Of a stretch of 64,000 nucleotides of DNA, positions 36,684 through 62,830 are shown piece by piece. Below the pieces are notes generated by a model. The model had not been told where the DNA came from and searched no databases. It saw only the letters and a list, made by a program, of their open reading frames with translations. Positions within the stretch are counted from its first letter, which is position 1. Every line of letters begins with the position of its first letter. Where the stretch lies: positions 43,277 to 107,276 of the IMG/VR virus record IMGVR_UViG_3300050025_000126. One strand, written 5' to 3'. Position numbers and translations under genes: made by a program. Source of the DNA: a virus.

Positions 36684-37787
36684 TTATTCAGTTATACCGA
36701 TTAGTTTCATGTATGCGCCTAGAGACAGTTTAGGTGATGTCAGACATTGAGCGGCTGACGCTCCGGTCTTGCGCATCTGGAAGAGAATAGAGGCGAACGG
36801 ATACTTGGTAGCTTCCAGGGCGAATTCCTTTTGGTTCTCAATATGCTTGATAGACTGATATGCCATAAATGCCGTGAAGCGACAATTAGCGTCTAGCTCG
36901 AAAATCTCGTCAAAAATCTTCCTCAATTCTGGGAAGCTATTGAGGGCCAACCCAAATTCAGAGGCTTCCCCCTTCCTAATTATTTCGCACATTCTCTTCT
37001 TGGACAAAGAGTCCTTGGCGTGGTGCAACATAACGTAGGCTGGCGACTTGATTTTAACACGGTTGAAATTGGCGTCAACTACAACGTACCCCTCGTGCTC
37101 CAAAGGATTAAGGGCTTCTGCTGCTTTGATACAATCATCAACAGAATGGAGAGGAAAGCTCTTAGGACAGGGGGTGTTGAGCTTATGTCCTAGCCCCAGC
37201 ATATTGGGAGTTAGCTCCTGTAGAGTGGTGTTGTCCCTAGCTCCTAGTAGCCAAATTTTACAATCCTTATGGTCGACTACAACCCTATTGAAAGGTGTGG
37301 TTAGTTCAAAAATCCAGGTGTAGCTTGGGCCTAAAAATTCAATCGTTGCTTTTTGGGCTTTAACAGTCTCCCAGAATAGCTCCTTGAAGGTCTTGCCAAA
37401 GCCGTTTACTTCACCAGATGCGTCAGGGGTTCCAGATGTTGCAATGTGCCACTTGTTGTCGTAATGGTAAAGCAGAATGAGGCTTCCGTCAATTTTTTCT
37501 TGCACCTCCGCAGTAAGCCAGTCGATGTTTGCGGCTAATGATTCGCTCTGGTTGTGGATTTTTTTAAATCCCATTGCCACAACGTTCCAATTGTCCGATT
37601 CGTCAAGTATGATTCCTCGGGCCTCTTGAACGATAGGCTCTTTGAACGGTGAGTCAATTTGATTATATTTAAAAAGACAAAGCTGCGGGTATTCACCGTG
37701 GCGCTTACAATCAATAGCAAAACGAGACTTTAGCTCTTCGATGCCATTTGGCGTTTCTCGTAAGAATTTTTGAGTTTCTAGTTCCAT
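36684..37787 (-). CDS. RNA ligase, T4 Rnl1 family
   Basis: A 367-residue protein. Motif I EKIDGSL places the AMP-accepting Lys at 98; the upstream KKIHNQSE and the downstream WIFELTTP and EGYVV, VKIKS segments fit motifs Ia, IIIa, IV and V. T4 Rnl1 repairs tRNA cut by host anticodon nucleases, together with a kinase-phosphatase. The adjacent second RNA ligase, tRNA cluster and HAD phosphatase support an RNA repair role. No overlap with the neighbour at 37843. Confidence 0.8.
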   Translation of the reverse strand: MELETQKFLRETPNGIEELKSRFAIDCKRHGEYPQLCLFKYNQIDSPFKEPIVQEARGIILDESDNWNVVAMGFKKIHNQSESLAANIDWLTAEVQEKIDGSLILLYHYDNKWHIATSGTPDASGEVNGFGKTFKELFWETVKAQKATIEFLGPSYTWIFELTTPFNRVVVDHKDCKIWLLGARDNTTLQELTPNMLGLGHKLNTPCPKSFPLHSVDDCIKAAEALNPLEHEGYVVVDANFNRVKIKSPAYVMLHHAKDSLSKKRMCEIIRKGEASEFGLALNSFPELRKIFDEIFELDANCRFTAFMAYQSIKHIENQKEFALEATKYPFASILFQMRKTGASAAQCLTSPKLSLGAYMKLIGITE

Positions 37788-37842: not shown

Positions 37843-38826
37843 TTAAGCACTCTTTCTCAAAAGATACCCCTCGCCAATCATCTTTAGGATAACTCTGCCG
37901 CACTTGTGGTCCCATCGCTCTTTAATGGGCCGTGCAACGAACCCCTCTCGCACGTGGTCAGCGTTCGGCAATGTCGTCTTGCCTTCGGCCAAGGACAGTA
38001 AATTTTGCGTCCAAGGGCCTCTGTATAGCTCTGGAGCTGTATTGAGGTCTAGCTTAGATATTAGAGCCCTGAAATCGTCATAGTCTAAGTAACGCCGTGT
38101 GTTTACATACATTGCGTCAAAGCAAATAAGTTTAACGCCAGAAGTAATACCATAACGCAAGTCTTGAACCTGGCCGTAAGCCTCTCCATAAACAGCAATG
38201 TCTGGAATAGTAGCTAATTTTTCTTGCAAAAAGTAATCTGACGCCAACTTCCACCACAAATTACGTTCGTCAAACTTTTTAACGTTCTTGTGCGATCCAA
38301 CCCACAACCGGTTGTTTTTAAACAGGAACCTTGAGTTTGATCCGTGTACCTTCTCGGTTAAGACCACTTCCTCACCCGTAACAAAGACCCCCTTATGCTT
38401 CCTAAGCCCCTCAATGTCAGTATAGACAGGTAGGAACCCTGGGTCAGATTCGTTTTCGGTATTCATATATTCAGCCCGGTCTAGTTCTGGCTCCCACTTT
38501 TCAATGCCGAGCACCTTTTGGACGTTTTGGCCCTCTATCCATTCTGGCAAAGCCTTGGTAAATAGCCCCATAGAAAATACACCACGAAGCTTCCTGGCCT
38601 TAATGCGTCGGTGACCACTTAGAAAGGCCCATTCAGGCGAATCTGGCACAATAGAGTCAACTGGCACATAAGTTGCAAGCTGGCCTTCTTCAAAGTCTCC
38701 TGTGCGAAAAATAACAGGATACCCTAGCTCCTTATCCCCATCAATATAGGTAATAGACAAGGTATCAGCGTTAGGGTGCTTTTCTACTGGGCCTATTTTT
38801 ACGACTCTTACATTAAATTCACTCAT
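37843..38826 (-). CDS. RNA ligase with N-terminal OB-like domain (Rnl5/DraRnl-like)
   Basis: I choose the ATG at 38826 (327 residues); the longer frame runs into the tRNA cluster. The N-terminal 110 residues (VVKIGPVEKHPNADTLSI ... RTGDFEEGQLATYVPVDSIV) resemble the OB-like domain of Deinococcus RNA ligase and tRNA-binding domains. The ligase core has motif I TEKVHGSN (Lys about 159), VYGEAYG (motif III), EGFVARP (motif IV) and KCGRVILKMI (motif V). Such ligases seal 3'-OH/5'-P nicks in RNA. It is the first gene downstream of the RNA cluster. Confidence 0.8.
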   Translation of the reverse strand: MSEFNVRVVKIGPVEKHPNADTLSITYIDGDKELGYPVIFRTGDFEEGQLATYVPVDSIVPDSPEWAFLSGHRRIKARKLRGVFSMGLFTKALPEWIEGQNVQKVLGIEKWEPELDRAEYMNTENESDPGFLPVYTDIEGLRKHKGVFVTGEEVVLTEKVHGSNSRFLFKNNRLWVGSHKNVKKFDERNLWWKLASDYFLQEKLATIPDIAVYGEAYGQVQDLRYGITSGVKLICFDAMYVNTRRYLDYDDFRALISKLDLNTAPELYRGPWTQNLLSLAEGKTTLPNADHVREGFVARPIKERWDHKCGRVILKMIGEGYLLRKSA

Positions 38827-38839
38827 ATTTATCCTTTTG

Positions 38840-38927
38840 TAGAGGTAGTAGGAGTTGAACCTACACAAACCTTGTTAGGGTCTCACGTTTATAGAACATG
38901 GGCTTTAACCAATTAAGCTATACCTCT
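38840..38927 (-). tRNA. Type II tRNA, loop TCTATAA (UAU by position), identity uncertain
   Basis: 88 bases with complete arms: acceptor AGAGGTA/TACCTCT, D-arm GCTT/AAGC with GG, anticodon stem CATGT/ACGTG (one G-U), T-arm GTAGG-TTCAACT-CCTAC, and a 19-base variable arm. By standard numbering the loop TCTATAA gives anticodon UAU but puts C, not U, at position 33. If the loop is read one base later, U33-CUA would be an amber-reading anticodon. No encoded CCA. Confidence 0.7.
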
Positions 38928-38944: not shown

Positions 38945-39018
38945 GTGACCCCAACAAGATTCGGACCCACGATTTTTCAATTATAGATTGAAAGCCTTAA
39001 CCGCTTGGCCACACCTCA
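38945..39018 (-). tRNA. tRNA-like gene, good 5' half, defective 3' half
   Basis: D-arm GCC-AAGCGGTTAA-GGC (38994-39009) and anticodon arm TTCAA-TCTATAA-TTGAA (38976-38992) are intact and resemble Gln-type tRNAs; the loop equals that of the neighbouring tRNA. The T-arm pairs almost only by G-U, and the expected acceptor strands do not pair. Likely a damaged tRNA or one completed from elsewhere. Confidence 0.45.
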
Positions 39019-39151
39019 GTATTGGTGCCCGATTTTTCGTCACGAGCAACGCTACCAGCACAAGCCACCTATAGACGGTGTAGAGCGTTAGACTGGTAAG
39101 GTGATCAACCGCCAAATCTACTGCCGTGCTTACCTAACTTTTCATTAAGCG
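39019..39151 (-). ncRNA. Gene-free structured stretch ending in CACCA
   Basis: No ORF. The minus strand carries a 6-bp GGTAAG/CTTACC stem, a possible 7-bp AGCACGG/TTGTGCT pair 74 bases apart, a CACC-GTCTATA-GGTG hairpin, and a terminal GGGCACCA like an encoded tRNA end. No full cloverleaf can be drawn. Confidence 0.3.
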
Positions 39152-39225
39152 TGACGCCACCAAGACTCGAACTTGGGACCTACGGTTTAGGAAACCGTTG
39201 CTCTTTCCGGCTGAGCTATGACGCC
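39152..39225 (-). tRNA. tRNA-Arg(CCU)
   Basis: 74 bases, standard cloverleaf: acceptor GGCGTCA/TGGCGTC (two G-U), D-arm GCTC..GAGC, anticodon arm ACGGT-TTCCTAA-ACCGT with anticodon CCU reading AGG, T-arm CCAAG-TTCGAGT-CTTGG. CCA is not encoded. The best-formed tRNA in the window. Confidence 0.9.
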
Positions 39226-39286
39226 AAAATAGGAGCAGGAGACTAACCGACTGTCTTACAGCTTCCCGTATGCGAACGCATCTTGT

Positions 39287-39310
39287 TTGGCTGCCAGGGA
39301 TTGAACCTGG
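39287..39310 (-). pseudogene. tRNA 3'-end fragment (T-arm and acceptor strand)
   Basis: T-arm CCAGG-TTCAATC-CCTGG followed by CAGCCAA, a tRNA 3' half. The 5' half cannot exist here because tRNA-Phe ends 13 bases upstream. Probably a remnant, or half of a permuted or recombined tRNA. Confidence 0.45.
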
Positions 39311-39322
39311 GTTCCCGCTTTG

Positions 39323-39396
39323 CCCCTCCCCGTAGAATCGAACTACGACCTCTGCCTTTTCAGGGCAGCGCTCTAACCAATTGAGCTAGTGGAGGG
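39323..39396 (-). tRNA. tRNA-Phe(GAA)
   Basis: 74 bases: acceptor CCCTCC/GGAGGG, D-arm GCTC-AATTGGTTA-GAGC, anticodon arm CTGCC-CTGAAAA-GGCAG with anticodon GAA, T-arm CGTAG-TTCGATT-CTACG. The seventh acceptor pair is A-G and there is one extra base before the D-arm. CCA not encoded. Confidence 0.85.
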
Positions 39397-39504
39397 AAAT
39401 TGGTGCGCGCCGCACTGTTGGATTATGCTATCCTAATTGTTAAATGGTTGCAACCAATATTTACAATTATGGATCAGGATTGTCACCTGAATCTGCGCGT
39501 TTGT
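39397..39504 (-). ncRNA. Gene-free structured stretch ending in CACCA
   Basis: Contains hairpins GTGCG/CGCAC (39403-39415), the palindrome TGGTTGCAACCA (39445-39456) and a 5+7+5 stem-loop (39474-39490). The 3' end reads GCGCGCACCA just before tRNA-Phe. Not a standard tRNA. Confidence 0.3.
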
Positions 39505-39644
39505 GATATGAATAGGAGTTGCACCCAGCCGAAGATACCTTCATCTTAAATGTACCTCTCTTCGGTTCAACTGCTTGAATCTAGCGGCGATCACTCCGCG
39601 TAGTCATTCAAGCCGTAGCAGATTCTACTCTGCCAGTTCATACC
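39505..39644 (-). ncRNA. 140-base five-helix RNA, tRNA-like at its 3' end
   Basis: First element after the promoter at 39668-39696. Helices: closing 39505-39511 with 39638-39644 (7 bp, one G-U); 39618-39622 with 39629-39633; 39573-39580 with 39606-39613 (8 bp perfect) with inner GCGG/CCGC; 39529-39535 with 39559-39565 (7 bp perfect); and a T-arm-like hairpin with loop TGCAACT. This is twice the size of a tRNA with enlarged arms. No ORF of note inside. Confidence 0.5.
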
Positions 39645-39667
39645 GTTATTTTGTTTTCGATTTATGT

Positions 39668-39696
39668 ATACTAACCTATCCCCAACCCACTGTCAA
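39668..39696 (-). promoter_or_regulatory. Sigma70-like promoter of the RNA cluster
   Basis: TTGACA (39691-39696), 17-base spacer, TAGTAT (39668-39673), minus strand. Expected start about 39661, some 17 bases before the 140-base RNA, so the cluster 39644-38840 is probably one early transcript. Confidence 0.7.
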
Positions 39697-48699: not shown

Positions 48700-48885
48700 T
48701 TAGTTCAATACTATCGTTGCTTCTGCTTCTTGTTTTACTTGTGCTACCGACTTGCCCAAAAGGGTCTCTAGAAACACCAGATGCTTGTGTTGGTGTTCAA
48801 GTAATTGTAAACTAGAGTTAAGCTCCCTGGTAAGCTGTCGGATTAATCTTTGGTCTCTTGTGAGCGGCTTACTTTGTTTCTTCAT
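48700..48885 (-). CDS. Small coiled-coil protein
   Basis: A 61-residue helical protein (KKQSKPLTRDQRLIRQLTRE ... heptad leucines). Overlaps the polymerase C-terminal gene by 17 bases, so it is coupled to it; a polymerase accessory role is possible but only by context. Confidence 0.5.
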   Translation of the reverse strand: MKKQSKPLTRDQRLIRQLTRELNSSLQLLEHQHKHLVFLETLLGKSVAQVKQEAEATIVLN

Positions 48886-51151
48886 CTTTTACCTTTTCTA
48901 CGGGGCCTCTAATTAATTGTAATTTGCGGAAACTCCAGCCTTTGTTCAAGTCGGTTTTGGTAATTACTCCGACTATAATTGAACCGACCTTCAAATTCGT
49001 TACTTCTGCTGGGTATCCTCCATCTTGACCTGGCCATGATACCACTTCTTTTTTGAAACCGCAAGCGTCGATGAAAACTTTCTTGGCCGACTTGGATTTG
49101 TTTTGGTAGGAGAACGTCTCCAAATTGTCTACATGTCCTACAATTGCACACTTGAACCCGTTCTGTGGCAGTTCCAACGCCGTGTCCACATCAACAAGGT
49201 CTGCTCTACTTACAACCCTATCTACTGAATCAACCTCTTCTCTAGCTTCTCTGCTCCAGGCCTTGTAGTGGTAAAGCAAATCTCCCGTTTCGTTTTCGGT
49301 AAAATAAAGCCCATCGTTTACCGACATCAAATTCCTAATATCCTCTGAATAAGCAGGCAATACATCTTTCTTTACCTGGAAGCGCCCCAATGCGTCTAAT
49401 GTAGGATATTGGACCTTTGACTTGTTATACTTTTTCCCTTCTGCCAGCGTATAACGCTTTAGCAGTGTCTGGTATTGCTCGATTCGTTCTGCGATTGATA
49501 AATTGGGGTCGAACAAGCTGTCCAAAATCCCAGCGACAAACAATGTATGCATAGTTCCAATTGTAATAGCACTTCTACGCCACTTACCCTCTACCGCCCC
49601 AGCCTTCCTATACTCCACAATCTTCTTGCAAAAATCGTCTGCCGATTCGTAAGGCGCATATTGATTGAGCTGGGCATGGGCCGTTTCACCAATACCATAG
49701 CACAAATCAATAGGGGCTCTAATTCTATCACCTACAATAGCCCAAGTAGGCTTAGACAATTTGATATCTGGTAAGTCTACGATATTTTCGACGTAAGGCC
49801 AGAATTTTTCTGTCACTTCTTCTTTTTTAGCGTTTTTTAATACGCTACACCACCACTCTAAGGGATAGTAATGCTTGAGCCAGGCACAAGCATAAGAAAT
49901 AACTACATATCCCACACTGTGTGCTTGGCAAAAAGAGTAAGCAGAAAATTCGAGTAAGCCAGACCACACTTCTTTTGCCTTATTTAATCCAATCTTAGGT
50001 GCGGCACGTTCGGTGAAAAAGGTGTATAATTTTGCCATTTCTTCGGGCTTCTTTTTTGCTGACAATCGGCGAAACGCTTCCGCTTCGCCTCCTGTACACC
50101 CGGTTAGATTTTGATAAACCTTCTGCAACCCCTCCTGGAATACAATTAGACCATAGGTGTCAGGAAGAAGAGCGTCAAATTCTGGTAAAATGTCTTTACT
50201 ACCAGGAAGGCCTCTAACCCTTCTAGCGTACTCTACTAACAGATTGTGTTTCTGCCCTGGTACGTCTGGATTGCTGACCACATAATTAAGCGGTCCAGGG
50301 CGGTCCAGGGCGGTAAAAGCTGCCATAGCCGCAATGCTATTGATTCCAGGAGTACCGTCGGGCCTTATGTGGTTAAATTGTCTTAGCCACTGAACGGCAG
50401 ATGCTGTGTTATACTGAAATACGGTTTCTGTTTTACCTTGACTGACATCTTTGTACACATCTAGATCTGTCGGAAGGTCCCAGATATCAACAAAATTATG
50501 GGAGACAGGGTCTAGAACAAGCCGGTGAGAGGGCACCTTGCGACCGTTTACGTTTTGTTCTACGGGGGACAATTGATTCTTTCTGCTGGCAATCAATTGT
50601 AAACACGATTGAATGTCCCTTAAACACAGCACGACAAGAAAATCAAACTTTAGAGCGCCTACATTTTCAATTTCTGAACCAGTAAAGGCTGTTACCTTAA
50701 TTCCAGATACGGACGTAATAGGGATAAAGTCACTGATTGGTTTGGGAGCAATTACGAATGCAGAAGCGTGCCTTCCTCTTTGACGTGGAAGTGCTAGTGC
50801 AGACTTGGCTATAGCCCACTGTTCTGGATATTTACTAATGTAGGTCTTTAGGGCCTCGTCCCTCTCGATGCTGCCCTGATGGTTGCCTTCATCGTCAGAC
50901 CATCCCATGATAAACCTTAGGTCCGAAAGCCCCTGAGGAGGCATTTCAAATTTCTTTACAAGGTCTTCGATATCTTGAGGGACCACCCCTAGAGTAAAGC
51001 GGGCCACGTCCTTAACACTGTTCTTTAGCTTAAGTGTAGTCAAAACACTTACCTGCGCCTGGCAATCTCCAAATCTTTCCTGAAGCCAGCCAGGGAAATA
51101 TGGCTTAAGGGTGCCATTTTTAGAACTATTTGTTATTTTTGCGAATTTCAT
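48869..51151 (-). CDS. dnaE: DNA polymerase III alpha, C-terminal part (split DnaE)
   Basis: I choose ATG 51151, overlapping the stop of the N-terminal part by 4 bases (ATGA); a TTG 15 bases upstream is also in frame. The 760-residue protein starts with a 19-residue lead (MKFAKITNSSKNG...) and joins the alpha-subunit sequence at GWLQERFGDC, continuing through palm, thumb and fingers (ALKFDFLVVLCLRDIQ, holding the third catalytic Asp by alignment with E. coli D555; LDRPGPLNYVV; YGLIVFQEGLQKVYQ; FRRLSAKKKPEEMAK; AHSVGYVVISYACAWLKHYYP) to a terminal OB-like region. It lacks the first two catalytic Asp, which lie on the other polypeptide. Confidence 0.85.
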   Translation of the reverse strand: MKFAKITNSSKNGTLKPYFPGWLQERFGDCQAQVSVLTTLKLKNSVKDVARFTLGVVPQDIEDLVKKFEMPPQGLSDLRFIMGWSDDEGNHQGSIERDEALKTYISKYPEQWAIAKSALALPRQRGRHASAFVIAPKPISDFIPITSVSGIKVTAFTGSEIENVGALKFDFLVVLCLRDIQSCLQLIASRKNQLSPVEQNVNGRKVPSHRLVLDPVSHNFVDIWDLPTDLDVYKDVSQGKTETVFQYNTASAVQWLRQFNHIRPDGTPGINSIAAMAAFTALDRPGPLNYVVSNPDVPGQKHNLLVEYARRVRGLPGSKDILPEFDALLPDTYGLIVFQEGLQKVYQNLTGCTGGEAEAFRRLSAKKKPEEMAKLYTFFTERAAPKIGLNKAKEVWSGLLEFSAYSFCQAHSVGYVVISYACAWLKHYYPLEWWCSVLKNAKKEEVTEKFWPYVENIVDLPDIKLSKPTWAIVGDRIRAPIDLCYGIGETAHAQLNQYAPYESADDFCKKIVEYRKAGAVEGKWRRSAITIGTMHTLFVAGILDSLFDPNLSIAERIEQYQTLLKRYTLAEGKKYNKSKVQYPTLDALGRFQVKKDVLPAYSEDIRNLMSVNDGLYFTENETGDLLYHYKAWSREAREEVDSVDRVVSRADLVDVDTALELPQNGFKCAIVGHVDNLETFSYQNKSKSAKKVFIDACGFKKEVVSWPGQDGGYPAEVTNLKVGSIIVGVITKTDLNKGWSFRKLQLIRGPVEKVKDEETK

Positions 51152-54100
51152 TGGTTGTTCCACCAAGGAACGAAATCTATGTTTTCTTCTACCACTTTTT
51201 TAATAGGAAGTACACCTTTTTCTGTTTCTACTCGAAAATCTTCCGGGAGAACATGTTTTGTGCCATCTTCCGCCTCAACCTCTACGACATCACAGTCCTT
51301 GCCGCAAAGAAGATCTCTATTAGAGAAATCCAAATCCACGTCTGGCATAGTGTGGGACTTAATTCTGTCCAATGTAAGAAACCTGTCTAGGCTAAGTCCA
51401 TGTTGAATGGGGTCAATCGAGGTGATACCTAACAGATAAGAAAGTAACACACCTCCTGCGCTATTGTGTACCGCGTATTCAGAGGTCAAAAAGGAATGGT
51501 CATGTTCAACTTCGAGGTCAAACACCTCTTTTATTGATGAATATTCCTTACTTAAAACAGTAGACCAATATCCTATAGTTGATTCATTGGACCATCTAAA
51601 CTCTATTTTATAACTTCTATTACATAGATATTTTCCACGATAAAAAGGCTCTCTTGTATTTACAGACGATGGGATTCCAAACCTTAGAAGAGCTTCCCTA
51701 AAAGAATCCTTCAGAAGCACGCTGGTTGTATCGAAGGTGTAGCTTGGTCTTCCCTTTCCTTTTTTAGGTTTTTTTGTGTGACCATCAGAGTCCATGAGGC
51801 CCAGGAGGAGTGATTTTAGCAAATTTTTTGGCCAATTCAACCACTCTTTCGGGATGTATTTTGTTCCAGAAGAGTTTTTGTACAACGGAAACAAGCTCCG
51901 GAATAGTTTACACAGAATACTTGAACTTGCCATCAGCTGAACTAGTTTTTTAGTCTTGTGTTGGACCTCAACAGGTTTAGATACGCAGTAAGGGGCTAGA
52001 ATGGCTTTTATCTTTTCTATGCCGTCACGATCTTTTGTGTTGAACGCAACCCCTAGTCGTTGTTCTTTGTTTATCCAACCGTCCCCAATCCACCGACCCA
52101 GAAGATAGGAAAAATCTTCAGAGACGTTAATATACCTTGGGTGGTTAACAGTTTTGGGGGTCCTCCATTCGTCGACCGTGAGACCAACCTTACTTAGTTC
52201 ATCGTTTATTTTAGATAAAGCTAGAATGCTTCTTGTGGCTTTTCTCCCATTTTTCATAACAAGAGGCGGGACGTATCCGTTTCTGACTTTCCCTAGAAAG
52301 GTCCTGTTCCCACCGAGACGTCTTCCTCCAGGTATTTCGCTGATAAAAGTCCGTGAGATAATCTTCGACTCTTCAACGTCCACCCCGTCGTGGACAAACT
52401 CAGCCAAGTCTAACGGGTCTGGGGAAACTTCTTTTACCAAAATTCTAGGAGTGAAAACAACATCTCCGACTTTAAGAGCATCCGCTTCTATCCAGCTCGG
52501 GACCCATTTTTCATCTTTCCAAACCCTGATACTGGACAGAGTTGATTTGCTGAGCCTTTCCAATCCGGCAATTTTCGATCTTTTGAAACCGTATACTTTG
52601 TGGTCTTTTGTTAGAAGAAATGGAGTGTGTTTGTAGGTTGTCTTAAGCTTCACGCATTCTTCGTCTGTGTTGTATTTGAAAGTGTTCGTAACTTTGCGAA
52701 CATTTCCCTGGTGGGAGTAAACTTCATCACCGACTTTTATGTCTCTTATTTTCCTGTACCCACATGTTGTAAGAATTAAGGCGTCACCTTCTAGACAGCC
52801 TCTGGAACTGCCGACAAGAACGCCCTGGTTTTCATACAAACGGCATTGCTCCTCGCACGTAAAGAAGTAGGGCAATAGGTCCACTGTTCCGTTACGGTGG
52901 AACAGCTGTATCTCCTGCTTTAACCTAGCAATATACCTGGGGTCATCTTTAGGCATTCTGCCATGTTGTTCGATAAGTTTCTTGGTGTGACCTAAGGTAT
53001 CTTGGGGATAGAACTTTGTGGGTAGTTGTAGGGTGTTGTCGAATTTGAAGTCTTTGAACGAATCTCTAAACGCATAGCTGTTGTCAACCCAAGATTCAAA
53101 TTCTTTTTCTGAAATATTATGTTTCTCTTTGAAGTGAGCAAAGGCTTCGTCACTTGAATATCGGTGATACGAGGATGCGAACCGCCAGTCCCCCATTTGA
53201 GAAAGTTTTACATCCTGGACGATTTTCATATTTGGTGACGCGAAGTGACAATCGTCCGAGACAACTATGGGTAGGTTATATTTTTTTGCCATACCCATCA
53301 TGAAAACGTTTACCCCCCATTGCAGGTCGCCTCCTGGGGCCGCTGGAGAGCAATCATTTTGTATAAAACCTTCGTGCTTACGAACACCTATAATAGGTAG
53401 AGGAACCTCAACGTCAGTCCAGGTGTGAAAGTTCTTGATAGCCAACAGTGTTAGCTTCTTTTTTCCATTCCACTTGTCGGCTAACTCCTCGGCTTTAATC
53501 TCCCCATCTTCGGTTTTTAGGGTCTTGCCGTAGTAGAACTTCAGAGTCTTTTTTGCTTCACCTTCTCCGACCTCGATAAATACTCCTTTAGAGAATTCTC
53601 GGTCACACACATGAGGAAACACCTCAACAATCATTCTGTCACCAAACAGATGATGAAGTCTTTCAAAATAGCCCTTGGCTGCGCCTAGCTTAACGCTAGC
53701 GGGGCTCTCGGTGTTGATTAGGTGTCGGCTGACCATTCCAACCAAACACCCTGATCCAACAGTTGTTTTAGTTGCAGCAAGCTCTTCCAAATCCGACCAA
53801 TCAAACAGTGGCTTGCGCTCTGAGCCGTGGATTTCCGCTCTATCGTCAGCCTTAGATAAAAGTTTGACGCCTTTAAGATAAGCGTCGTAATTTTGAAAAC
53901 CTAACGTGATGTGGTAATATTTATTGTAAGAGTAAAACGTTCCATCTGGATGGTCAGCCTTCCAGTTATCCTTATCCATGCCACGGGGCACGGTGTCAGT
54001 TTTAGGAATGCCTAATCTAGTTAGAATAGGACAATCGTTTGACCTAAAATACGCCTCAATACCTGGAATTGCGATTAGATTGTTCTTTTTTGCAAGTGCA

Positions 54101-54249
54101 GAGATCCTGTAAATAGCGGCCAGACTTCCGTGGTCGGTTGCTGTAATGGCTCCTGTACCTAGTTCTATTTCTCTAGCACAAAAGGCCTCTGGAGTAGAGG
54201 CTGAGTCTAGAGACATTACGTGGACGTGTGGAGAAACAAAATTCTTCAA
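51148..54249 (-). CDS. dnaE: DNA polymerase III alpha, N-terminal part with intein (split DnaE)
   Basis: A 1033-residue precursor. Residues 1-70 and on are a PHP domain (SPHVHVMSL, TATDHGS). Extein continues to GSSRG, is interrupted by an intein (485-929), resumes at SAGGVLLSYLLGITSIDPI and reaches MPDVDLDFSNRD, which contains the first two catalytic Asp (E. coli D401/D403). It then ends, not in polymerase sequence but in a 42-residue tail (from Cys992) resembling the end of split-intein N-fragments (VVEVEAEDGTKHVLPEDF; VETEKGVLPIKKVVEE). Residues about 215-299 form another insertion of similar character. Coupled by ATGA to the C-terminal part. Confidence 0.85.
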   Translation of the reverse strand: MKNFVSPHVHVMSLDSASTPEAFCAREIELGTGAITATDHGSLAAIYRISALAKKNNLIAIPGIEAYFRSNDCPILTRLGIPKTDTVPRGMDKDNWKADHPDGTFYSYNKYYHITLGFQNYDAYLKGVKLLSKADDRAEIHGSERKPLFDWSDLEELAATKTTVGSGCLVGMVSRHLINTESPASVKLGAAKGYFERLHHLFGDRMIVEVFPHVCDREFSKGVFIEVGEGEAKKTLKFYYGKTLKTEDGEIKAEELADKWNGKKKLTLLAIKNFHTWTDVEVPLPIIGVRKHEGFIQNDCSPAAPGGDLQWGVNVFMMGMAKKYNLPIVVSDDCHFASPNMKIVQDVKLSQMGDWRFASSYHRYSSDEAFAHFKEKHNISEKEFESWVDNSYAFRDSFKDFKFDNTLQLPTKFYPQDTLGHTKKLIEQHGRMPKDDPRYIARLKQEIQLFHRNGTVDLLPYFFTCEEQCRLYENQGVLVGSSRGCLEGDALILTTCGYRKIRDIKVGDEVYSHQGNVRKVTNTFKYNTDEECVKLKTTYKHTPFLLTKDHKVYGFKRSKIAGLERLSKSTLSSIRVWKDEKWVPSWIEADALKVGDVVFTPRILVKEVSPDPLDLAEFVHDGVDVEESKIISRTFISEIPGGRRLGGNRTFLGKVRNGYVPPLVMKNGRKATRSILALSKINDELSKVGLTVDEWRTPKTVNHPRYINVSEDFSYLLGRWIGDGWINKEQRLGVAFNTKDRDGIEKIKAILAPYCVSKPVEVQHKTKKLVQLMASSSILCKLFRSLFPLYKNSSGTKYIPKEWLNWPKNLLKSLLLGLMDSDGHTKKPKKGKGRPSYTFDTTSVLLKDSFREALLRFGIPSSVNTREPFYRGKYLCNRSYKIEFRWSNESTIGYWSTVLSKEYSSIKEVFDLEVEHDHSFLTSEYAVHNSAGGVLLSYLLGITSIDPIQHGLSLDRFLTLDRIKSHTMPDVDLDFSNRDLLCGKDCDVVEVEAEDGTKHVLPEDFRVETEKGVLPIKKVVEENIDFVPWWNNQ
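51151..51276 (-). other. Hint/split-intein-like tail of the DnaE N-terminal part
   Basis: Encodes residues 992-1033. It begins with Cys directly after the polymerase sequence and its 45 residues align by eye with the last part (block B onward) of DnaE-type IntN fragments: V-[VF]-E-x(3)-E-D-G-T/S ... then x-G-x-L-P-I-x-x-[IV]. Block A and the first 50 residues of a normal IntN are missing. Confidence 0.45.
51463..52797 (-). mobile_element. Intein with LAGLIDADG endonuclease in DnaE
   Basis: Codes for residues 485-929 (445 residues). Starts CLEGDALILT (block A), has LTKDHKVY (block B), two LAGLIDADG motifs (LLGRWIGDG about 716-724; LLLGLMDSDG about 814-823), and ends FDLEVEHDHSFLTSEYAVHN followed by Ser (+1). 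All splicing residues are present, so it should be active in splicing; insertion is at GSSRG/SAGG in the polymerase palm region. Confidence 0.9.
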
Positions 54250-59733: not shown

Positions 59734-62577
59734 TTAACGAACAGGGCAACTTCCTGACTCACATTCGGTTCCTTCAATTGTTCCAGCTTCTTCTATATTA
59801 TCAAAATCAATAGGCTTTACTTTAGCAGACAGCTTTTCATATTGTTCTTCTGTAATTGCTTCCTTTGGAGCCTGTACAAACCCATGGCCCGTATGTCTTA
59901 GGAAGCTGACGGTCTTGATTTCGGACAGGTTGTTTGTAAGCCATTCTTTAATAGCTGGGATATCTCCATCTTTATAGTAGGCCGTTACAGAAATACTTTG
60001 GTCTGCCCAGTGTTTTTGAGCCATCTTTACTGCGTCTAGTTGTTTCCAAGTATCGAATCCTGAATCAGCGCATGGAACACCCTCAGGAGTCTTTACATAG
60101 AAATCGACGACCATAGTGTCGGGATCTAGGCTACCATCTAGACGCTTTTGAGGTTCGATATGGTGCCCGGCTTTTTGTAGTTTAGGCACTAACGGGTCGT
60201 TACCAGCGATTCTTATGCGTTGAATGAAATATTTGCTGTACGCTGGATGAATTCCTTCACACGGACTATCAAAGGCCTTGCTCAAGCTACCTGAAGGCTT
60301 GATTACGGTTGTTCTGACACTAGGGTCTATATTTAGCTCTTTGGAGTAAGTGATATTCTCTTCTTGAATTTTTGCGTATACGTAATCGAGAATGTCTGGA
60401 TTAAACAAATCTAGCCTTTGTAGGCACCCTGTGATTCCTGTCCCAATACGATGGTTTCTATTAACCACTTCCTGTACTTGGGGCCAGTGGTACTTTTCCA
60501 TCGATACCCGCTTGCCCCAACGATGCATCAGCCTAGCAGCTTCTGCAAACTCATTCTTGTCTGTAATGAAAGTGAGGTTAATATCCTGTAGATTGCAAGA
60601 TTCAGCATTTTCTAAGGTGGCTTCCCCGCAATTGCTTACATGTAGACCGCCAGTCCAATAGGTATGATCCTCTGATTCAACTGTAATGTCAAAGACTGGT
60701 TCCTCTTTGATTGGTATGACCTCTACAATGTCAAAGGTCTTTTTGGGTGTTTTTTCTTTATGAATTTTAACAACTATGGTCTGTAGCTTTTCTGCTTTAT
60801 AAGAGTGTACGAATCCGATTAGTTGTTCAAATTTTCTTTTGCCAGCCCCATAAGCGATGTTTAGGTCGTAACTCTGCCTACAAGTATACTTGCCGTTGTT
60901 GAACTCTATCTCTTTCGACCTATTGGTAGTGTAATACGAAGCTATTCCTAACGAAGATAGCATTTCCTGAACAGCCTCAATAACAAAGAATGAAGTAGCC
61001 TTTAAAACTACTCTACCTCCTGGAGTAGAACCATTAGCTGAATACAAACCGCGAAGAAATCCTCGTACCTTCTTTTCGTTGCCATACCTAAACCGGTCGG
61101 GAACTTTCCTGTCATAGGTTTTAGGAAGGGGGCCTTGTATTGTAGTTTTGATCTCCCAAGAAAAGGGACCGACGCCGGGTCTATAGACTTTAAACAGGTG
61201 AGAAACTTCACTATTCTTTACAATGCATTCGTCTTTTTCGCCAATACAAAGTAGCGTTAAATCGCCCGATGCCTTGTGCGTCGTTCCGTCTCCAAACACC
61301 ATTCCGTCCATGACATCCTGAGGTTCTAACGGAATCGGTACCCCCAGATATGGGGGAAGACATATGTCAATATTTTTTGCTTTCTTGGCCTCTACCTTTA
61401 CACCATTCGATACAACTCTATGGTTTTCTGTGCCGTAAAAAGTTCCAGCTTTTGTTTTGTAGGCGTTTACCTGTTTTGTCCCGGTATTTGTTTTCTTAAT
61501 TACGCTAGTCCAGCGTGTTCCGGACCATATAAGATCTCCAACATTAATTTTTTCTATTGTAGAAATGCCATTTGGTGTTAGAACAGTTGCCCATCCGGGC
61601 TGACATGGATTTACTACTGCTGCATAGTCTTTCTTTTCTTCTCCCATACGACCGTACTTGCGAATGTTTGGAAGATTGATAATACCAAATGCTTCACCTT
61701 GCTTATAAGTCTCCCAGAACAGAGGTCTCAGGTCGTGCTCTACATCTGAGGCAACGATTGAAAAGTTAGCCATGCTTCGATAGGTTGGTATTGACCCAAG
61801 GTCCCAACGCTTAGCCTTGAGAAATTCGCGGTCCCATGCATCGCCTTGAATTAGTATCGCACTTCTACGCACATTTCCTGACACTACCATCTGTGCAACA
61901 CAACAGATAAGGTCCGCCATGTCAATTGGTCGTAGCTTCTTACCTTGTCTAGCCGTAAATACTCCACATAGGTTTTCTACCATACGAACCAAAGGCCTAG
62001 GACCTGAACTAATGCCACCAAACCCAGCAATAATCTCCCCAGGTCCTCTTACACAGATCGTACTATAACTAAATCCCTTGCCAGTGACAAACCAAGCTTC
62101 TAAAACCTTGTACAGTAACCGACACCATCCTTCTCTTGTGTCAGGAACAATAAAATCCGTATCCTTAGTTAAACGATGGGTGATAACAACATCCTTCTTA
62201 ATCTTAGGAAGTTGGTCTACGTATTTGGACTCAACACTAAACCCAACTCCTCCACCTAGCATAAGAAGGTCTGCTGCAATTACTAAATTGTTCCAGTCGT
62301 CTCCTAAGAATCCCCAGCAATTAGTGAGCGCTGCCCCACCTAACTTACTCTGATTCTTGGTCCCAGAAATCCAAAGGCCCCTTCCCGCAGGAGATGCCTT
62401 GCGCTCCAGCATAAAATATCGCAGACGTTCAATTTCCTTGTCTGTTACGTTATGCCCCCTTACATTACCTGTAATTACTCGTTCTACAATTTCGGGGTAG
62501 GTTTCAATTCTATTTCCGAAAGGTCTAGCATAAGTCCTGGAAATTACTACGTTAGCTAGATTACTAATTTGTGACAT
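59734..62577 (-). CDS. nrdJ: Ribonucleotide reductase, class II (adenosylcobalamin), with intein
   Basis: I choose ATG 62577 (947 residues; MSQISNL), as the longer frame overlaps the upstream gene more. The mature enzyme (about 622 residues after splicing) resembles monomeric class II reductases: ASPAGRGLWISG, GGGVGFSVES, SGNVRRSA, NP-CGEATLENAESCN active site, and the redox tail CESGSCPVR. No NrdB/NrdD-activase partner is nearby, as expected for class II. It makes dNTPs from NTPs using vitamin B12, independent of oxygen. The intein interrupts the catalytic NP-C motif. Confidence 0.85.
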   Translation of the reverse strand: MSQISNLANVVISRTYARPFGNRIETYPEIVERVITGNVRGHNVTDKEIERLRYFMLERKASPAGRGLWISGTKNQSKLGGAALTNCWGFLGDDWNNLVIAADLLMLGGGVGFSVESKYVDQLPKIKKDVVITHRLTKDTDFIVPDTREGWCRLLYKVLEAWFVTGKGFSYSTICVRGPGEIIAGFGGISSGPRPLVRMVENLCGVFTARQGKKLRPIDMADLICCVAQMVVSGNVRRSAILIQGDAWDREFLKAKRWDLGSIPTYRSMANFSIVASDVEHDLRPLFWETYKQGEAFGIINLPNIRKYGRMGEEKKDYAAVVNPCQPGWATVLTPNGISTIEKINVGDLIWSGTRWTSVIKKTNTGTKQVNAYKTKAGTFYGTENHRVVSNGVKVEAKKAKNIDICLPPYLGVPIPLEPQDVMDGMVFGDGTTHKASGDLTLLCIGEKDECIVKNSEVSHLFKVYRPGVGPFSWEIKTTIQGPLPKTYDRKVPDRFRYGNEKKVRGFLRGLYSANGSTPGGRVVLKATSFFVIEAVQEMLSSLGIASYYTTNRSKEIEFNNGKYTCRQSYDLNIAYGAGKRKFEQLIGFVHSYKAEKLQTIVVKIHKEKTPKKTFDIVEVIPIKEEPVFDITVESEDHTYWTGGLHVSNCGEATLENAESCNLQDINLTFITDKNEFAEAARLMHRWGKRVSMEKYHWPQVQEVVNRNHRIGTGITGCLQRLDLFNPDILDYVYAKIQEENITYSKELNIDPSVRTTVIKPSGSLSKAFDSPCEGIHPAYSKYFIQRIRIAGNDPLVPKLQKAGHHIEPQKRLDGSLDPDTMVVDFYVKTPEGVPCADSGFDTWKQLDAVKMAQKHWADQSISVTAYYKDGDIPAIKEWLTNNLSEIKTVSFLRHTGHGFVQAPKEAITEEQYEKLSAKVKPIDFDNIEEAGTIEGTECESGSCPVR
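60631..61605 (-). mobile_element. Intein in the ribonucleotide reductase active site
   Basis: Codes for residues 325-649 (325 residues). Begins CQPGWATVLT, has GTENHRVV (block B), two LAGLIDADG-like motifs (MDGMVFGDGT about 423-432; FLRGLYSANG about 507-516, the second lacking its acidic residue) and ends GGLHVSN then Cys. The penultimate His of most inteins is Ser here. The +1 Cys is the enzyme's own active-site residue. Confidence 0.85.
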
Positions 62578-62830
62578 TTTTCTTAAAGACTCCATAATAC
62601 AGTAAAATGACCCAACACATAAAACCAACTAGATAATTGCAAAACAAAACCGTGCTGAACCCATAGGACAACAGCAAGAACAAATATTGTACCATAGTAC
62701 CAAGGCAAATGACAAGGGAGATATCGACCGGAGTGCCTAAAGATTTGCCAGCTTTGATAGTTCTAATTACAGCTGGTAAGGCGGCGAAAGCAAACAGTGC
62801 TCCGCCAATAAGACCTAGGAGGGAGAGCAT
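62564..62830 (-). CDS. SemiSWEET/PQ-loop-like three-helix membrane protein
   Basis: An 88-residue protein with three membrane helices. Residues 5-40 (GLIGGALFAFAALPAVIRTI and KAGKSLG) match the PQ-loop/SemiSWEET pattern of a helix ending in P, then R-x-I-K-x-x-K-S. Full SemiSWEETs are about 90 residues and work as dimers moving sugars. Rare in phages. It overlaps the resolvase gene by 1 base and the reductase by 14. Confidence 0.6.
   Translation of the reverse strand: MLSLLGLIGGALFAFAALPAVIRTIKAGKSLGTPVDISLVICLGTMVQYLFLLLSYGFSTVLFCNYLVGFMCWVILLYYGVFKKNVTN

Follow-up and report, generated by a model that had tools for sequence, protein, structure and literature searches.

RNA C of phage T4 has been without an assigned function for about 50 years. 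Bacterial tRNA-Sec is a class II tRNA that combines an 8-bp acceptor stem with a 6-bp D stem, a long variable arm, a UCA anticodon loop, a 5-bp T stem, and G73. For RNase P, the CCA-adding enzyme, and T-loop modification, a 12-bp stack together with a T loop makes a substrate of tRNA maturation. The role of T4 RNA C (rnaC, species 1 RNA) is called unknown both in a review and in recent transcriptomics, and its assignment to the late RNAs is supported by a Northern blot (PMC3014915, PMC9697503). YrlA RNAs, 90–150 nt in length, are noncoding tRNA mimics that possess a T, an acceptor, and a D arm (PMC8394870, PMC7790460); it has been proposed that their tRNA-like domain inhibits an anticodon nuclease competitively (PMC7790460). 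The tRNAs of phages have been reported to counter tRNA-cleaving immunity (PMC10264068, PMC11555353).

The 64-kb stretch of viral DNA analyzed here (the window) is contained in a 107-kb environmental virus record and carries a gene set for phage replication and tails. Between 39.7 and 36.7 kb, its minus strand encodes a tRNA cluster and, behind it, two RNA ligases, with an RNA of tRNA-like shape (E1) at the head of the cluster (Table 1). E1, which is known from only two contigs (the window and the viral locus L002), is a real and conserved structured RNA of the minus strand that lies directly behind a conserved sigma70-type promoter.

Table 1. Coordinates of E1, its promoter and arms, the neighboring genes, and other tRNA-like RNAs. 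Positions without a locus prefix refer to the window.
Feature	Position	Strand	Evidence or remarks
E1, 140-nt tRNA-shaped noncoding RNA	39505..39644	-	Homolog L002:4904-5042; 40/40 consensus pairs kept
-35 hexamer TTGACA	39691..39696	-	Identical in L002
-10 hexamer TAGTAT	39668..39673	-	17-nt spacer; identical in L002
Short leader ACATAAATCGAAAACAAAATAAC	39645..39667	-	First 22 bases: 19 identical in L002
Acceptor-like helix, 5' strand GGTATGAA	39637..39644	-	8 bp; pair probability 0.68-1.0
Acceptor-like helix, 3' strand TTCATATC	39505..39512	-	Followed by discriminator-like A (39504) and CA
D-arm-like hairpin, GGCAGA/TCTGCT	39617..39634	-	6 bp; loop of 6 nt in the window, 4 nt in L002
Anticodon-arm-like long arm	39574..39612	-	7 bp, internal loop GACTAC/TAG, 4 bp GCGG/CCGC, 8-nt loop
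Variable-arm-like arm	39529..39565	-	7 bp, symmetric internal loop, 4 bp
T-arm-like hairpin TGGG-TGCAACT-CCTA	39513..39527	-	Counterpart in L002: TGGG-TTCGACT-CCCA
E1b, permuted tRNA-like cloverleaf, separate from E1	39399..39503	-	z = -2.8; window only
tRNA-Phe (anticodon gaa)	39322..39396	-	ARAGORN
E2, circularly permuted tRNA-like cloverleaf	39226..39323	-	Conserved; homolog L002:5042-5142
tRNA-Arg (cct)	39151..39225	-	ARAGORN
RNA ligase gene, downstream, same direction	37843..38868	-	PF09414, E = 6e-24; phrog_968
T4 Rnl1-like RNA ligase gene	36684..37787	-	PF09511, E = 1e-15; phrog_562
Oversized tRNA-like RNA	10568-10448	-	121 nt; descriptor, among the clearer matches
Oversized tRNA-like RNA	L047:11717-11874		158 nt; descriptor, among the clearer matches
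Oversized tRNA-like RNA	L077:14613-14755		143 nt; descriptor, among the clearer matches
Oversized tRNA-like RNA	L077:14935-15035		101 nt; descriptor, among the clearer matches
Oversized tRNA-like RNA	L032:16235-16344

Promoter, strand, and gene neighborhood

The promoter that the initial annotation had placed at 39668-39696, at the head of a 140-base RNA, is present as TTGACA-17-TAGTAT (39696-39668) and conserved in L002: the two contigs share both hexamers (-35, 6/6; -10, 6/6; 12/12 in all), whereas the spacer has diverged to 4/17 identical positions at unchanged length. In both contigs, E1 is the first element past this promoter and begins 23 nt downstream of the -10 box; the intervening leader is presumably cut away by RNase P. 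No terminator-like site was found beside E1 on the same strand.

All 40 base pairs of the consensus structure (see below) are standard on the minus strand, whereas the complement retains only 36 and 34 of them in the two copies. Although the opposite-strand fold of the region is also stable (z = -4.2), the G-U pairs, which would be nonstandard on the plus strand, and the promoter assign E1 to the minus strand; the G-U pairs rule out an RNA of the plus strand as its identity.

In addition to the tRNA genes for Phe and Arg, the cluster contains two tRNA-Ile-like genes (38954-39070 and 38840-38927, minus) with UAU anticodon-like loops, one of which scores below the Rfam cut-off (24 bits), while the other has an unusually long variable region. 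The TTG listed as the start of the first RNA ligase gene overlaps the tRNA-Ile, and the ATG at about 38826 is probably the actual start. A P-loop kinase and a calcineurin-like phosphatase are encoded elsewhere on the contig, on which no TROVE (Rsr) protein was found. In L002, a second tRNA-like element (E2) and three tRNAs come immediately after E1, with no spacer in between. In other parts of the window (48869-54249 and 59734-62628, minus), the translations indicate a DNA polymerase III alpha-like protein that is divided between two overlapping frames; both this protein and a ribonucleotide reductase-like protein seem to contain intein-like insertions.

A class II tRNA plan with enlarged arms

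E1 has the helix order of class II tRNAs, with the acceptor first, then arms in the places of the D, anticodon, and variable arms, and a T arm last. In both copies, the T arm is stacked directly on the acceptor, which results in 8 + 4 = 12 bp as in tRNA, and the A and CA that follow the acceptor are also seen behind some of the neighboring tRNA genes. The D-like loop is devoid of a GG motif. A 7-nt anticodon loop on a 5-bp stem is absent from E1, which has instead a long arm, with one compensatory pair between window and L002, that harbors the most conserved block of the RNA (ACGCGGA..GA.CGCCGCTAGATTCA). The variable-like arm shows three compensatory pairs, and its apical loop lies inside a conserved UUUAAG.

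The T loop is canonical in L002 (UUCGACU) and reads UGCAACU in the window, with a G in place of U55. The T arm of L002 (UGGGUUCGACUCCCA) is matched by that of the Rfam tmRNA model RF00023 (tRNA clan). Owing to a competing pairing, the pair probability of the T stem is only ~0.04 in the window, compared with 0.78-0.98 in L002. A pairing between the D loop and an internal loop of the window (GUAG/CUAC) was rejected, as it is not conserved in L002.

The five helices and the loop lie where the initial annotation had located them, on the minus strand. The cloverleaf-like plan with a T-arm-like hairpin that had been proposed is confirmed with one correction: a five-arm consensus that includes the T arm is backed by L002, but the minimum-free-energy structure of the window lacks this arm. 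The class II plan and the canonical T loop of L002 had both been overlooked.

Conservation of the fold

With a minimum free energy of -47.0 kcal/mol, E1 is considerably more stable than its shuffled sequences (-34.2 +/- 3.6 kcal/mol; z = -3.5), among which 0 of 200 were as good, and its z score is lower than that of each of the 457 tiled 140-nt windows on the minus strand of the 64 kb. The homolog in L002, which has the promoter and the upstream genes in common with the window, shares 77% identity with E1, with indels between the copies; E1 is therefore not coding, and a coding sequence is ruled out as its identity.

The consensus structure comprises 40 pairs in seven helices, all of which are kept in both copies. 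The 13 substitutions in paired columns touch nine pairs, four with double and five with single compatible changes, and break none; the remaining 31 of the 40 pairs are invariant. When 13 substitutions were placed at random in simulations, a mean of ~32 of the 40 pairs was kept, and full retention occurred in none of 20,000 trials, irrespective of the starting copy. Sliding the pairing partners by 1-3 columns reduced the paired fraction to 34-49%. Covariation is limited because only two E1 sequences are known, and their comparison demonstrates a selected structure but not each single helix. The covariance analysis with a related virus that had been suggested for this RNA thus came out in favor of the fold, with compensatory changes in L002 and 40/40 pairs kept.

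E1 was not matched by the tRNA covariance model (RF00005) and reached the gathering score of none of 4227 Rfam families, and ARAGORN called neither a tRNA nor a tmRNA, which agrees with the earlier description of the RNA as neither a tRNA nor a recognizable tmRNA.

Distribution of E1

A blastn search of E1 against 50,697 phage records returned only chance pieces. In pattern scans of IMG/VR with the core and the 5' end of E1, L002 was the only true relative; an early scan with a pattern from the 3' side gave no match, and a scan of genome contigs was overrun by high-GC chance matches. Scans with the RNA ligase and an 89-aa open reading frame yielded no relatives. The scan with a NAMPT-like gene, through which L002 was collected, provided 80 viral loci and that with the upstream phosphatase-like gene seven, but E1 was present only in L002. 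A match of 22 bits to the E1 model in the locus L012 was rejected, since it covers an ordinary tRNA. In the relative L003, the upstream gene is accompanied by tRNA-Arg and tRNA-Ile but not by E1, which is therefore dispensable. In L252, a close relative of L003, tRNA-Arg breaks off about halfway (L252:1540-1590): a stretch that is almost the same as in L003 gives way to unrelated sequence, so that the tRNA cluster has been lost in L252.

Further tRNA-like RNAs in the cluster and in other loci

E1 is adjoined by further tRNA-like RNAs, which the initial annotation had missed, as it had the analogy with T4 rnaC (see below). E2 is packed between tRNA genes without spacer; it starts with the 3' strand of the anticodon arm, continues with T arm, acceptor hairpin, and D arm, and closes with the 5' strand of the anticodon arm, which is the arm order of the tRNA-like domain of YrlA. 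Three compensatory changes distinguish the copies in the window and L002. The same fold occurs between two tRNA genes of a third locus (L024:498-583; 16 bits with the E2 model). The 3' flank of E2 is CTTATTTT in L002 and L024 and CCTATTTT in the window. The YrlA model did not match E2 and gave a weak match of 12.8 bits in L024. E2 is either a permuted tRNA or a module of the YrlA kind that lacks Rsr; ARAGORN called no permuted tRNA on the doubled sequences of E2 and E1b. A scan with an E2 hairpin pattern found no match, but the spacing of the pattern was one base longer than that of L002, so that L002 itself was missed. The D and T loops of E1b are degenerate, and the element is missing in L002, where E2 directly follows E1.

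Another conserved element (E3) is located between tRNA genes of the window (39152-39020, minus) and of L003 (L003:5870-6030). It contains the hairpin GCTTA..TAAGC and TGGTAGCGTTGnnCGTGACGAAAAATCGnnCACCAA as well as a compensated hairpin (GCTCG/CGGGC versus GTACG/CGTAC), and has no match in Rfam.

Oversized RNAs with tRNA-like ends were also found, in the window and in related viral contigs, with a descriptor that demands a T loop with G53-C61, a perfect T stem and acceptor of together 12 bp, a length of 100-200 nt, and no match to a normal tRNA at the same place. In 1.57 Mb of sequence, it yielded 15 matches, compared with 1-2 in shuffled sequence, and recovered both copies of E1; the descriptor was tuned to accept the loop of E1, and some of the 15 matches are duplicates, chance matches, or merely long tRNAs. 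The RNAs from the window, L047, L077, and L032 listed in Table 1 (101-158 nt) have perfect acceptor and T arms and were missed or miscalled by ARAGORN.

Possible function of E1

The best explanation, to which we assign a probability of roughly 0.5, is that E1 is a tRNA-derived noncoding RNA that is processed like a tRNA and serves as a tRNA mimic, encoded in one operon together with tRNAs and RNA ligases. Because its anticodon loop is lost, E1 cannot decode codons, and we infer that its use must therefore be that of a mimic. The transcript would probably undergo cleavage by RNase P at the 5' end, trimming, and addition of a CCA tail in the same manner as a tRNA, resulting in a stable RNA of ~140 nt. 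More doubtful is the next step, in which the mature mimic might act in trans and tie up a host factor that recognizes tRNAs at their elbow or acceptor end. The likeliest target of such a decoy would be a tRNA-directed nuclease or an enzyme of tRNA decay or processing, with replacement tRNAs and RNA-repair ligases encoded in the same operon. The spare tRNAs, the two RNA ligases, the kinase, and the phosphatase represent a setting that is compatible with a defense against tRNA damage. Points against a tRNA mimic are the T arm of the window, which is unfavored by energy, the G in place of U55, and the lack of a GG in the D loop to which the T loop could dock.

The main rival to a mimic is a function in cis, where E1 would cap or lead the tRNA-ligase transcript at its 5' end, protect it from 5' decay or determine the order of processing, and be functionless once released. 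The location of E1 immediately behind the promoter in both contigs would suit this role, but we consider it rather unlikely, as the 12-bp tRNA-like end exceeds the needs of a leader hairpin and the strand offers no terminator-like site beside E1. Moreover, the nearest analog, T4 rnaC, sits at the 3' end of its cluster, so the position of such RNAs is not fixed. It is quite improbable that E1 is a functional, aberrant tRNA or a tRNA with a removable insert in the anticodon arm. Such an RNA would share the class II plan, the T arm, and the discriminator A, and the two RNA ligases downstream and the kinase and phosphatase elsewhere on the contig would be in keeping with it; however, neither ARAGORN nor the tRNA covariance model recognizes E1, no Rfam intron family matches, the D loop lacks the GG, and the anticodon-like arm is among the most conserved parts of the RNA and not a drifting insert.

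Conservation also speaks against a decaying tRNA-like relic that is functionless today and merely carried along with the cluster. Although the deviating T loop of the window and the absence of E1 from L003 could be accommodated by decay, the retention of all consensus pairs and both promoter hexamers at 77% identity, next to a diverged spacer, renders this explanation very improbable. The least credible candidate is a ribosome-rescuing RNA in the form of a minimal tmRNA: the T arm is the sole part of E1 that matches a related Rfam model, that of tmRNA, but there is no sign of pseudoknots or a tag domain, G3-U70 is lacking (position 3 is U-A), and there is no tmRNA call by ARAGORN. The same features rule out tmRNA proper as the identity of E1.

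Comparison with known tRNA-like RNAs

E1 shares the acceptor-T arm stack and the T-loop sequence with the tRNA-like domain of tmRNA but differs in the absence of an mRNA-like domain and of the alanine identity pair. With tRNA-Sec, it has in common the 8-bp acceptor, the 6-bp D stem (loop length 4 nt in L002, 6 nt in the window), and the long variable arm; by contrast, the T stem has only 4 bp, the discriminator is an A, a long arm replaces the anticodon arm with its UCA loop, and there is no Rfam match. Like YrlA, E1 is a noncoding RNA within the range of 90–150 nt that has T, acceptor, and D arms and would mimic a tRNA, but YrlA binds Rsr and is permuted, its T arm, acceptor, and D arm being enclosed by a basal stem, whereas E1 is unpermuted; the order of YrlA is found in E2.

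The closest parallel is T4 rnaC (L243:2409-2547), an RNA of 139 nt in the tRNA cluster of T4 that is conserved in >600 phage records and whose ends form an acceptor-like stem and a canonical T arm. Both RNAs are ~140 nt long, belong to a phage tRNA cluster, possess a tRNA-like acceptor but no anticodon loop, and have interior arms far larger than those of a tRNA; the canonical T arm is common to T4 rnaC and the E1 of L002. The two differ in that T4 rnaC has one very long arm and one hairpin between acceptor and T arm, where E1 has three arms, in the T stem (5 bp in T4 rnaC, whereas E1 ends with 8 + 4 bp), and in their location at the 3' and the 5' end of the cluster, respectively. Homology was rejected: a model built from seven rnaC sequences of Tevenvirinae finds T4 and Moon but neither copy of E1, and there is no sequence match. 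E1 therefore works like rnaC at most, and no membership in its family is shown. In the alignment of T4 rnaC sequences, an invariant TTGACG in the apical region of the long arm is complementary to an invariant CGTCAA in the loop of the second hairpin, also in fGh-Ecl04, where the rest of the long arm has diverged; through these motifs, a loop-loop pseudoknot may form in T4 RNA C.

It is a speculative generalization that many phages encode long tRNA-derived RNAs without anticodon function before or between their tRNA genes, either linear (E1 and T4 rnaC) or permuted (E2), which would be matured by the tRNA enzymes of the host and protect the phage, as decoys or guards, from immunity directed at tRNAs. 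The retention of the acceptor-T stack with loss of the anticodon points to enzymes of tRNA processing and tRNA-directed defense, and the shared features provide a search rule that has already yielded more candidates. E1 and T4 RNA C agree in size, setting, and tRNA-like ends although their sequences are not homologous, which suggests that RNAs of this type recur under selection instead of being an oddity of T4.
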